Virus record (IMG/VR): IMGVR_UViG_3300032173_000577
Location: 1 to 22,511 of that record
DNA length: 22,511 bases
Strand: one strand, 5' to 3'
Source of the DNA: a virus
Shown: piece by piece, positions 16,430 through 21,409 of the stretch
Layout: each line of letters opens with the position of its first letter
Numbering within the stretch: position 1 is the first letter of the stretch
The notes under the pieces: model-generated
Told to the model about the DNA's origin: nothing
The model's database searches: none
The model's input: the letters and a program-made list of their open reading frames with translations, nothing else
Made by a program: the position numbers and the translations under genes

Positions 16430-19162
16430 CTACTCAATCACACTTAGAATTACACAACGGCAATTCTTGACAACTATACCATTGGCGATGTATAATTGGT
16501 CTAAAGATTGGAGGTCATATACATGCCCGCTAAAATTAAATTTCCTAACTTGGAGAATTTGCTTTGGCGCTATCAGGCTGGCGAATCGGAACTGAAATTG
16601 GCTAGAGAGTTCGGTATAGACAGGGGAGTTATCCGTAGACGCCTTTTGGAAGCTGGTATCAAACCTAGAACGGGGAGCGAGGCTAACATTATTAGGATGT
16701 CTCGTTTGTCCATTGAAGAGCGAAGGGAACTGACTGCTGCTTCCCACATAGCAACTAGAGGGCGTATTCATTCTATTGCTGAACGAGAAGCGAGGGCTAA
16801 AACTCGTGAGATTAAGAGGCTTGGCATTTCTACAATTGAGAATATTTTCGTTACCATGCTTAAAGACAATGGCATCGCTGACATTATTCAACAAAAAGCT
16901 ATTGGGATATATAATGTCGACATCGCCATCAAAGCACCCCGCATCGCCATAGAAATCTTCGGAGGACACTGGCATAGTAGCCCTAAACACATCTTGCTTC
17001 ATCATAAGCGAATTCCATATATCCTCAATAGGGGCTGGACAACTGTTATTATCTGGATTGATGCTAGACGATATCCTTTGACCATCAAGGCTTGTGATTA
17101 CATAGTCTCCCTCGTGAAGATACTTGGCTCTCATAAATCCAGACGGGGTCAATATCATGTGATTAGGGGTAATGGTGAGTCTGTTCCCATCCTCAGTAGT
17201 GAGTTCAATTGCTTGCCCGTTGTAAAAAGCCCTACTTCCCGAGACAACATTGGATGCTTCCACTCTAACATCAGGTAAAACACAATTTGGATGCAATGCT
17301 GGTCTCGGTCCCTCATCTATTAGATAGATGTTATCGTGCAATGCCATACACTCATCACAAGTTCTCTCATCCAGTGCCGTATACCACTGAACCTTCTTAA
17401 CCCCCAATTCCCGGTATCCTTCCTCAGCCCCTTTAGCCGAAGCAGTGATAACCTCAGTTCGTGCTACCATTTGAGCCCTGATTTTGTAGGCATGTGTATA
17501 ATACTCCTCTATCCTCTTTGTTATCTTGGGAATAGATTCACCAGCCTCAAAACCAGCCGCCAACACCCCCCTTAATTGCTCAATAGTCGTGCCGTTTAAC
17601 AGCTTGGCTAATGTCAATGATCGGGTAGCAATCCACTCCAAAGCATGTGGGTTAAGGAATTCTTGCTTTATTATAGCGCGATGCGTTGGCTTCGGCTCTT
17701 CCCCCTCCATAACATCCCGTCCAGCTGATTCATATACGTAAGCAATTAAAGGTTTGAAAGCATCCTTAAATCTCTCATTAGCTTCAGTCTCATTAAACAA
17801 AGACCCTTCTGCTGTCTGCGACCTCTTTAGGTTTTCAATGACCTCAGATTGTTGCTCGTCAAATAGGGTCCTGATCATCTTGAGAAATGGCTTCTCTTGT
17901 CCTTCAGTCCTGGCTTTGTAACCTAGCCAGTAGAGCTCCTTCTGCTCCTCACTCCAACGGTGAGAAGTCAAATTTTTTTGTGTAAGACTTTTGGCTGTCT
18001 CAGGTAACATAGTTAACGGCAGTAAATAAGTCCCGCCCTTCATATCTTCTGAACTGTGCCCTAATAATTTCTGGGCAAACTCGCGGGTATAGACACCTGC
18101 CCGAACCATCTTGTCGCATTCATCAACTAATAATGATCTATCCTCAGTAACAGGACTGACAAAATCCAGCTCCAAATTCTCGTCAAACAGAGGGCATAAC
18201 TGCTCATTAAGTGCTTCCTTAATCCGCGTCAGTGCTGGCTTGATAGTGTATTTAGCAAAGATGTATTCATCTGCCTCTGCCCTCGCCCGGCTACCAACCT
18301 CACTTGCTCCTATCAAACTGTCAGGTATGTGGTAAGCCCCCAGAATCAGTTTCTTATTAGCATTCCTTAGCCGCTCAAACTCCATATCTTTCGGTGCTAA
18401 TGCAATAGTGTTAGCTTTAGCTCCCCCCCAGAGAAATGCAGGCTTGCGGGCATTCCGCCAACCCTGATGAACCTCTAAAAATTCCTCCCTCAATTGTTTT
18501 CTCACTTCTGCTGGGGGTAAATCGGGAAATTCCAAAATCAGTCCTGGTGTAGCATCATTAAAGAATAACCTCTGCTGATACCGGGAGGCATAATACTCGG
18601 CATCTATATCCATACTCGTTGCCCTCGCTGCCCCGGTCCCCCGATACGGATTAGCGGGGTTTGGGTCCATAATATGGATTACCTCAGGGATTTCGAGCCG
18701 AACTATATTAGTTCCTCTCCTGTATTCATAATGAGAAATATATTGTGTCTTGGAGGGAACAACATACATAAACCCTGGCGGAGCCAGCCACATCTCACCA
18801 GGGACCTTCAGCCTATTAAAGTTTAAAGTAATAAAAGCCTCGCCCACTAAACCGATATATGTTTGAAGCATTAGAAGAAACTGGTATCGAGTTTGGAAGG
18901 GATTAACATAATTAAGCAAATCTAAAATAGGATGGTCATCTATCTCCTCATATTCCTTGCGATTCTTCTTATGATAGAATTTCCACCTGCTATCAGCTAC
19001 AGAATTAGCAATAAGAGATACAGCCCCAAATAGCCAGCCCACCTCTCCATAAATTTCGAGGTATCTCTGATACGACCACCCAGGCGGTATGGCAAATTCG
19101 CTAATGTAACTGCCACCCAGACGGAATCCCAACAGCCTTTGAATTCTGGATTTAATAGTCAA
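16430..19162 (-). CDS. Portal-MuF fusion protein interrupted by an intein
   Basis: The 910-residue precursor should splice to 636 residues. Residues 1-400 are an HK97-family portal (GEVGWLFGAVSLIANSVADS, VNPFQTRYQFLLMLQTYIG, GAYHIPDSLIGASEVG), the ring through which DNA enters. A helical linker (400-510) leads to a MuF head morphogenesis domain (about 510-626 plus 901-910: ARTEVITASAKGAEEGYREL, DERTCDECMALHDN, ALHPN). The conserved HPNCRC end of MuF is split: HPN at 624-626, then intein residues 627-900, then CRCVILSVIE. Start is TTG at 19162 with GGGAGGT six bases upstream, overlapping the HNH stop by 11 bases. Portal and MuF are usually separate neighbouring genes, so the fusion is itself notable. 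Confidence 0.9.
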   Translation of the reverse strand: MTIKSRIQRLLGFRLGGSYISEFAIPPGWSYQRYLEIYGEVGWLFGAVSLIANSVADSRWKFYHKKNRKEYEEIDDHPILDLLNYVNPFQTRYQFLLMLQTYIGLVGEAFITLNFNRLKVPGEMWLAPPGFMYVVPSKTQYISHYEYRRGTNIVRLEIPEVIHIMDPNPANPYRGTGAARATSMDIDAEYYASRYQQRLFFNDATPGLILEFPDLPPAEVRKQLREEFLEVHQGWRNARKPAFLWGGAKANTIALAPKDMEFERLRNANKKLILGAYHIPDSLIGASEVGSRARAEADEYIFAKYTIKPALTRIKEALNEQLCPLFDENLELDFVSPVTEDRSLLVDECDKMVRAGVYTREFAQKLLGHSSEDMKGGTYLLPLTMLPETAKSLTQKNLTSHRWSEEQKELYWLGYKARTEGQEKPFLKMIRTLFDEQQSEVIENLKRSQTAEGSLFNETEANERFKDAFKPLIAYVYESAGRDVMEGEEPKPTHRAIIKQEFLNPHALEWIATRSLTLAKLLNGTTIEQLRGVLAAGFEAGESIPKITKRIEEYYTHAYKIRAQMVARTEVITASAKGAEEGYRELGVKKVQWYTALDERTCDECMALHDNIYLIDEGPRPALHPNCVLPDVRVEASNVVSGSRAFYNGQAIELTTEDGNRLTITPNHMILTPSGFMRAKYLHEGDYVITSLDGQRISSSINPDNNSCPAPIEDIWNSLMMKQDVFRATMPVSSEDFYGDAGCFDGDVDIIYPNSFLLNNVSDAIVFKHGNENILNCRNAKPLNLTSFSPRFSFSNRMNTPSSCYVGSSSQFPSLFNGQTRHPNNVSLAPRSRFDTSFQKASTDNSPVYTELSSQFQFRFASLIAPKQILQVRKFNFSGHVYDLQSLDQLYIANGIVVKNCRCVILSVIE
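16467..16496 (+). promoter_or_regulatory. Consensus promoter for the antisense homing endonuclease
   Basis: TTGACA at 16467-16472, 18-bp spacer, TATAAT at 16491-16496, both elements matching the sigma-70 consensus in all six bases. The expected start near 16503 gives a leader of about 20 bases containing GGAGG (16510-16514). On the other strand these bases encode the intein end QLYIANGIVVKN, so the -35 box begins four bases inside the splice junction. Confidence 0.85.
16523..17278 (+). CDS. Vsr-like (EDxHD-type) homing endonuclease nested antisense in the intein
   Basis: A 251-residue protein on the + strand, the only convincing + gene of the window. GGAGG (16510-16514) lies eight bases before the ATG at 16523; an in-frame TTG at 16508 overlaps that site and is rejected. 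Residues 9-50 form a helix-turn-helix (LWRYQAGESELKLAREFGID, GVIRRRLLEAGIKPR). Residues 100-200 fit the Vsr/very-short-patch-repair nuclease fold used by the I-Bth0305I group: E106 in STIENIF, IGIYNVDIAIKAPR with D133, IAIEIFGGHWHSS with E144, H149 and H151, then GWTTVIIWIDARRYPL. It should cut the intein-free MuF allele and promote copying of the intein. The tail from about residue 203 (SRRGQYHVIRGNGE) is the reverse complement of intein block B. About 37 Leu and Ser codons contain no TTA, CTA or TCA, as needed to keep the intein strand open. Confidence 0.88.
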   Translation: MPAKIKFPNLENLLWRYQAGESELKLAREFGIDRGVIRRRLLEAGIKPRTGSEANIIRMSRLSIEERRELTAASHIATRGRIHSIAEREARAKTREIKRLGISTIENIFVTMLKDNGIADIIQQKAIGIYNVDIAIKAPRIAIEIFGGHWHSSPKHILLHHKRIPYILNRGWTTVIIWIDARRYPLTIKACDYIVSLVKILGSHKSRRGQYHVIRGNGESVPILSSEFNCLPVVKSPTSRDNIGCFHSNIR

Positions 19163-20594: not shown

Positions 20595-21329
20595 CTAATT
20601 ATACCGCCTCAAGTCCCTTTTTATGTAATACTGGCAGCCGTATTGCTTCAGTGTGGCTATGCATTCCCGCAGGAATTTACGCCAGTCTATCTCATCGGCT
20701 CTGGGGTGATAGTTTAATTTGCCTACCTTGAACAAATCCACAAAAGTATGAGTCTGCTTGATTATTTCGAGTGATTCGGCAGGCTCTATTACCGGCTCAA
20801 GGCTAACCCAGGTTTTAACACCGAGTTTGTAGGCTTTTCTCAGTGTCTCCATTCTCTCTCCTGGGATTGCTGCCCAAGGCTCCCACTGTAAGGACTTCTG
20901 CTCATCCAGGAATGTTAGCGTAGTAGCGAACTCGTCACCGGGCCGAAGTAGGTCAAAGTCTCTCTCCGCTCTCTTACCACCCTTGGTCAATATGATGACA
21001 TTAAAGAGATTTTCGTGAAGTATCTCTATAGCCTGGCGTGTTAGCTGATAGGTTATGTCTATGGGCTGGTAAGGGTCTGTTACAAAGCAAAGCAAGACAT
21101 TCCCCTTGTAGCTATCTAATGCAGCCTGGGGTGCGTCCTTTGCCAGCTTTTTAATTATGTCCTGGCGGGGGAGGGCTTTTATGAATTTCTGTCTATCTAC
21201 AAACGTGGCTTCCGGGGCATAGCAGTATATACAGCCGTGCCCGCATCCCTTATATAAATTGACAGCTAAGGGAGCATATTCCCCGGCTCTTCCTCTAGGC
21301 TCGTATATAACCAATCCTTTCTTTAGCAT
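20595..21329 (-). CDS. Radical SAM protein, spore photoproduct lyase-like family
   Basis: The start is set at the ATG at 21329 because GGGTGGTGG lies just upstream and the frame beyond it contains a promoter. The 244-residue product has NLYKGCGHGCIYCYAP with the CxxxCxxC cluster that binds [4Fe-4S] and S-adenosylmethionine, VLLCFVTDPYQPID and VIILTKGGKRAERD beta-strand motifs of the barrel, and GVKTWVSLEPVIEP near the end. It belongs to the SPL-like/DUF5131-type radical SAM proteins found in phages; the substrate is unknown and DNA repair is a possibility, not a demonstrated activity. It is placed between terminase and the DNA methyltransferase, suggesting a nucleic-acid role. Own promoter upstream. 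Confidence 0.85.
   Translation of the reverse strand: MLKKGLVIYEPRGRAGEYAPLAVNLYKGCGHGCIYCYAPEATFVDRQKFIKALPRQDIIKKLAKDAPQAALDSYKGNVLLCFVTDPYQPIDITYQLTRQAIEILHENLFNVIILTKGGKRAERDFDLLRPGDEFATTLTFLDEQKSLQWEPWAAIPGERMETLRKAYKLGVKTWVSLEPVIEPAESLEIIKQTHTFVDLFKVGKLNYHPRADEIDWRKFLRECIATLKQYGCQYYIKRDLRRYN
20598..20603 (-). promoter_or_regulatory. Possible -10 box TATAAT before the methyltransferase gene
   Basis: TATAAT on the minus strand (20603 to 20598), overlapping the end of the radical SAM gene, 17 bases before the ATG at 20581. No convincing -35 box, so support is weak. Confidence 0.35.
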
Positions 21330-21353
21330 AGCGCCACCACCCTTTTTAGTATT

Positions 21354-21383
21354 ATTATGTAACACTTCGTAAACATTTGTCAA
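21354..21383 (-). promoter_or_regulatory. Sigma-70-type promoter for the accessory cassette
   Basis: Minus strand TTGACA (21378-21383), 18-bp spacer, CATAAT (21354-21359). It lies between the terminase stop and the chosen radical SAM start at 21329, giving a leader of about 18 bases. It may let the radical SAM and methyltransferase genes be expressed apart from the structural genes, for example early or in a lysogen. Confidence 0.65.
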
Positions 21384-21409
21384 GTCTTTTAGGCTCAATT
21401 TACGCTTAT

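Follow-up and report, generated by a model that had tools for sequence, protein, structure and literature searches.

Organization of the locus

The window analysed here is the whole 22,511-nt stretch of the viral record IMGVR_UViG_3300032173_000577. On its minus strand, positions 16430–19162 hold a gene in which portal and MuF are fused into a single open reading frame (ORF) of 910 codons, interrupted by an intein; Pfam searches match this ORF to the portal (PF04860, E = 5e-51), Phage_Mu_F (PF04233, E = 7e-13) and Intein_splicing (PF14890, E = 1.2e-7) models, and the intein also scores above the cut-off for TIGR01443. The intein is 274 aa long (C1 to N274, followed by C+1) and occupies positions 16463–17284, its junctions reading PALHPN|CVLPDV and GIVVKN|CRCV, which places the insertion at HPN|CRC of the portal-MuF protein. 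An alignment of 46 related inteins supports these limits, which had been proposed in a preliminary description of this DNA and hold to the base. A gene for a radical SAM protein is found elsewhere in the window (20595–21398), between those for the large terminase and a DNA methylase.

The plus strand of the intein carries a second gene (16523–17278), which encodes a 251-aa protein with an N-terminal helix-turn-helix (HTH) and a Vsr/EDxHD-like catalytic domain, the two frames facing each other codon on codon. The preliminary description had held that this gene is complete, with promoter, ribosome binding site, start and stop all inside the intein, and each of these could be located: a perfect sigma-70 promoter, TTGACA-18-TATAAT, at 16467–16496, opposite intein blocks F and G; a Shine-Dalgarno sequence, GGAGG, at 16510–16514, opposite the DLQ of block F; an ATG at 16523; and a TAA stop at 17276–17278, opposite intein residue Leu3. 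The mechanically called ORF begins at TTG 16508; ATG 16523 was taken as the start because the ribosome binding site points to it.

Identity of the two products

The residues required for splicing are present in the window, namely C1, the block B motif TPNH (TxxH), the terminal N274 and C+1, and all four are nearly invariant across relatives. The penultimate His of block G is absent and replaced by Lys, as part of a wider pattern in which this residue is Ser or Lys in 59 of 93 members and His in the remaining 34; a penultimate His is common in inteins, not universal, and is no strict requirement. In the AlphaFold model the two ends of the intein are confidently predicted and match the solved inteins Mtu RecA and Ssp DnaB at a probability of 1.00, and the linker is predicted to be disordered. 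A Pfam search of this in-frame linker, between blocks B and F, returned no nuclease match; the element therefore lacks a canonical in-frame endonuclease domain at this place, the nuclease being antisense instead. From its motifs and predicted fold, we infer that the minus-strand intein splices.

The plus-strand protein matches the Pfam model REase_MTES_1575 (PF18741) with an E-value of 6.4e-6, below the curated cut-off, and members of its family also match HTH, DUF559 and Vsr models. A profile of the family (hmmsearch) matches 3hrl, I-Bth0305I (3r3p, E = 0.0021) and, weakly, Vsr (1cw0). The AlphaFold model has a mean pLDDT of 83, and its top Foldseek matches are Vsr (1cw0, 1vsr) and I-Bth0305I (3r3p), with a probability of 1.00 each and E-values of only 4e-3 to 1e-2. 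Profile search and predicted structure thus both bear out the Vsr-like identity initially suggested for this protein. Its putative catalytic region (16838–16975) includes E106 (16838), D133 (16919), E144 (16952) and GGHWH at residues 147–151 (16961–16975). Neither E106 nor D133 varies across about 110 sequences, in which E144 reaches 98% conservation; His 149 and His 151 are variable, and a residue-by-residue equivalence of E106, D133 and E144 to the E, D, x, H, D active site is not established. The GGHWH part is missing in some relatives (it reads GGGWA in Guernseyvirinae and is also absent from L049, L053, L056 and L057), and nuclease activity may therefore vary. We regard the protein as a putative HTH-containing nuclease of the Vsr/EDxHD type, for which site-specific cleavage is inferred.

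The antisense arrangement recurs in phages and prophages

No DNA-level relatives of the window were found in named phages, and protein searches were therefore used. For scanning, alignment A4 was chosen, alignment A2 being too diverse. When the searches started from the nuclease, all 57 viral loci recovered (28–50% identity) and all 26 prophage loci lay opposite an intein-bearing open frame, in antisense and always in the same register. To avoid circularity, a second scan relied on intein block B alone; of its 64 loci, 60 have the nuclease opposite the intein. Among the four exceptions, two (L146 and L147) end at contig edges and two (L151 and L152) represent one unrelated mini-intein in another gene, which was rejected as a member of the family. 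Altogether, 153 of 155 distinct nuclease loci lie antisense to an intein, in the same codon register, within a phage gene, mostly MuF. Phage_min_cap2 and a gene with a phage metallopeptidase match also harbour similar elements. The check proposed beforehand, a search of other MuF inteins for an antisense Vsr-like gene, consequently came out in favour of recurrence: nearly all related MuF inteins carry the nuclease.

A profile-based rescan of the viral collection yielded 491 relatives, a large natural data set for sense-antisense coding, and tblastn against named phages returned 129 records. Most of the records inspected label the gene as head morphogenesis or the like and nothing more; the record of Escherichia phage Snoke mentions the intein only, as does PMC8425127. 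The layout thus extends to far more than a hundred distinct phages and prophages, usually with just one of the two genes annotated. By implication, unannotated nucleases lie hidden in many genes labelled 'head morphogenesis' in common phages of Salmonella, Escherichia, Pseudomonas and Gordonia.

The two exceptions among the 155 loci correspond to one free-standing gene, found in Acinetobacter phage P1068 (L166, positions 1794–2687) and in a 97% relative (L169), where the nuclease homologue is convergent with, and touches, an intact intein-free MuF gene; its antisense frame has stops. In the tree the P1068 nuclease is nested, with modest support, among antisense members and may therefore be a derived escape. 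A free-standing origin of the nuclease was considered on account of this gene, which is a possible ancestor or escapee.

Selection acts on both strands as a mosaic

We asked how often the plus frame would stay open by chance if the intein protein is held fixed and its codons are redrawn synonymously. For the window this probability is 1.3e-6, and over 153 loci the mean log10 P is -4.8 per locus.

Conservation across 111 sequences divides the element into distinct segments. Between about 16571 and 17104 conservation resides in the nuclease frame, whose third codon positions are near random, whereas the intein frame dominates at 17105–17300 and 16454–16526. The latter regions correspond to the N-terminal splicing (Hint) segment with blocks A and B (17099–17284) and the C-terminal one with blocks F and G (GHVYDLQ...VVKN; 16463–16564).

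Substitutions point the same way. On a tree of twelve Guernseyvirinae elements, with events inferred as single-base changes, the linker has undergone 175 changes that are synonymous in the plus frame and nonsynonymous in the minus frame against 45 of the opposite kind, where 72:71 are expected. The ratio is reversed at both ends, with 4 against 19 in the C-Hint and 14 against 28 in the N-Hint, the latter also showing an 8.7-fold over-representation of changes silent in both frames. Thirteen pairs pooled (one of which, Snoke/sam, overlaps the twelve-element set) gave 355 plus-synonymous, minus-nonsynonymous changes and 103 of the reverse in the core, and the exteins of the same pairs displayed an ordinary one-frame pattern. 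Purifying selection therefore acts on both frames as a mosaic, on the nuclease over the linker and on the intein over both splicing ends. The check for such selection in both frames, proposed initially, comes out positive overall, and strongly so for the plus frame across homologues, with the refinement that it is not uniform along the element. The intein linker opposite the nuclease core is mostly free, apart from an HGD motif (16940–16951, minus strand), where both frames seem locked; the plus-frame third positions there are unusually conserved because this motif is kept.

Nuclease expression signals are written into intein codons

The promoter has a fixed position in the family, and its distance from the ribosome binding site is near-fixed. 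All 12 of its 12 consensus bases are present in 21.5% of 93 loci and in none of 1,860 synonymous shuffles; at least 11 of 12 are found in 40% of the loci, compared with 0.9% of the shuffles and none of 450 control windows. The block F Leu (VYDL) whose codon forms the ribosome binding site is encoded by CTC in 79% of cases, as opposed to 23% elsewhere. Similarly, in relatives with Leu at intein residue 2, the codon is TTA or CTA, which gives the nuclease its stop, in 53 of 59, whereas these two codons account for 15% of the other Leu codons in these ORFs. The promoter, Shine-Dalgarno sequence and stop of the nuclease are written into synonymous intein codons, and the same bases must hence encode both a splicing protein and a nuclease and also act as promoter and ribosome binding site.

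The promoter may also bear on the missing penultimate His. In each of the 37 loci whose promoter is near-perfect, this position is Ser or Lys, whereas His is found in 34 of the 56 others. The -35 box covers the first base or bases of the penultimate codon, which must then begin with A, and a His codon is therefore excluded. However, the two traits change 8 and 16 times on the tree, so that their association does not amount to 93 independent events; it is a lead from sequence comparison, not proof.

Evidence for mobility

Relatives in the Guernseyvirinae display several signatures of homing: an exact empty site, a disjunct distribution, elements more alike than their hosts and a short flank of perfect match. 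When the flanks of the Snoke element are joined, they align with intein-free phages, K1ind2 among them, across 600 of 600 bases, which makes the empty site exact. The Snoke intein is 95–98% identical to most Salmonella phage copies, whereas the segments of the host genes, taken beyond the nearest 60 nt, share mostly 70–80% identity. The inteins of W5 and TS6 are 99.3% identical; identity is 100% in the 60 nt of the N-flank closest to the intein, 81% over the following 300 nt and 75% in the other flank. No near-identical empty allele of the window itself was found, and the evidence for mobility comes from relatives only. Horizontal movement of the element as a whole is supported by these comparisons, and homing by the nuclease is inferred. 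The earlier proposal that the whole 822-bp element moves as one unit agrees with the exact empty alleles and with inteins far more similar than their hosts; it needs qualification for 11 of 141 relatives in which the nuclease stop lies just outside the intein (it lies inside in the other 130).

Proposed mechanism and alternative explanations

We consider it very probable that the element is a mobile intein with its homing endonuclease encoded antisense to it. Of the refuting conditions named beforehand, those open to computation were applied, and none is fulfilled. The layout, its recurrence, selection on both frames and the expression signals are observed, as are, in relatives, the empty sites and the transfer of whole elements; splicing, cleavage and its target are inferred. 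According to this model, translation of the minus strand would yield a single portal-intein-MuF precursor, and the intein, to judge by its motifs and fold, would excise itself from it. The plus strand would express the 251-aa nuclease from its own promoter, ribosome binding site and start opposite blocks F and G, and this enzyme would cleave MuF alleles that lack the intein, close to the HPN/CRC codons. Repair off the intein-bearing copy would then transfer intein and nuclease gene jointly, since the gene is contained entirely within the intein.

Antisense frames in the same register are often open, especially in GC-rich DNA, and most annotators do not call the gene; the plus ORF could accordingly be a mere shadow of the intein frame, kept open by the register. 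We give this almost no credence, as the low chance of an open frame given the intein protein, the nuclease profile and fold matches, the preference for promoter, Shine-Dalgarno sequence and stop at synonymous intein positions and the free-standing homologue in P1068 all speak against it, and a substitution pattern in which amino acids are retained in the plus frame but altered in the intein frame contradicts it. Conversely, only the nuclease might matter, the minus frame being held open in an insertion that does not splice, as in the ShiLan element of phage methylases. Out-of-frame, non-splicing endonuclease insertions have indeed been described (PMC11855218), and the linker frame is nearly free. 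Yet the near-invariance of C1, TxxH, terminal N and C+1, the intein-frame selection on both ends and their predicted Hint fold make such an explanation highly unlikely, and an unspliced 274-aa insert at a Cys motif should, by inference, harm the portal-MuF head protein.

There is likewise little to recommend a genuine nuclease with a role other than intein homing, such as cutting the DNA of competing phages, even if Vsr-fold nucleases have several roles and the cleavage target is only inferred here. The disjunct distribution, precise empty sites, short matching flank and greater likeness of inteins than of hosts weigh against such a role, as does the absence of any match to PADLOC defence families. 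Laboratory phages among the members would allow direct tests of splicing and homing.

Relation to known systems

Like canonical mobile inteins, whose endonuclease is an in-frame domain of the LAGLIDADG or HNH type (PI-PfuI and TliVMA are examples), the present element has Hint ends, sits at a conserved Cys motif and carries an endonuclease within it; here, however, the endonuclease is a separate opposite-strand gene with its own promoter and not a domain placed between blocks B and F. Some group I introns of nuclear rDNA contain antisense homing endonuclease genes, which are likewise opposite to the host-gene strand, but the other strand there is a ribozyme and not a translated intein. I-Bth0305I resembles the plus-strand protein in combining a Vsr-type catalytic domain (profile and fold matches to 3r3p) with an attached DNA-binding module; it is intron-encoded, whereas our gene is antisense and overlaps an unsplit intein end to end. 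Dassa and colleagues are said to have described, in 2009, free-standing Vsr-like/EDxHD nuclease genes beside split inteins, unlike the antisense gene in an unsplit intein seen here. The antisense layout would be a third way to join splicing and mobility, beside the in-frame endonuclease domain and the neighbouring gene. The ShiLan domain (PMC11855218), an out-of-frame HNH endonuclease hidden in a phage methylase insertion, also overlaps the host frame in a homing insertion and has its stop at the insertion's very end, but it lies on the same strand in a shifted frame, belongs to the HNH family and has neither a splicing domain nor a detectable ribosome binding site.

The literature searched does not describe any intein with an endonuclease in antisense, the nearest case being ShiLan. 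Outside this search remained a preprint of 2025 by Gosselin, Arsenault and Gogarten (bioRxiv 10.1101/2025.01.02.630785) on inteins of 'non-canonical architecture' in actinophages, cited in PMC11855218; it may cover the Gordonia phage members (Vivi2, Fosterous, Angelicage), and priority is therefore uncertain. Both halves of the element are of a known kind, and the antisense layout appears new for a mobile intein, subject to that uncertainty. We lean, with some reserve, towards an undescribed and widespread class of elements, in which splicing and homing are placed codon facing codon on two strands, the promoter, ribosome binding site, start and stop of the nuclease lie in the splicing blocks, and the -35 box has displaced the penultimate His in many members.

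Variation among related elements

Several related loci depart from the common form. In L074 (2204–3628) the element interrupts a match to PhageMetallopep (PF18894) rather than MuF, and Escherichia phage BEU35 (L168) carries a related intein with antisense nuclease at a second MuF site (STTC-CRARD region), where phage KMB36 probably has one too. The nucleases of L098, L103, L110, L122 and others contain two or three tandem HTH copies, the intein being longer by about 46 codons or more. A frameshift in L145 breaks both intein and nuclease and is either an assembly error or a real loss; this locus was left out of the interpretation. In L081 (3297–4706) a deletion has taken part of the nuclease, including the E106 region; the intein frame is still open, and the element looks to be decaying.
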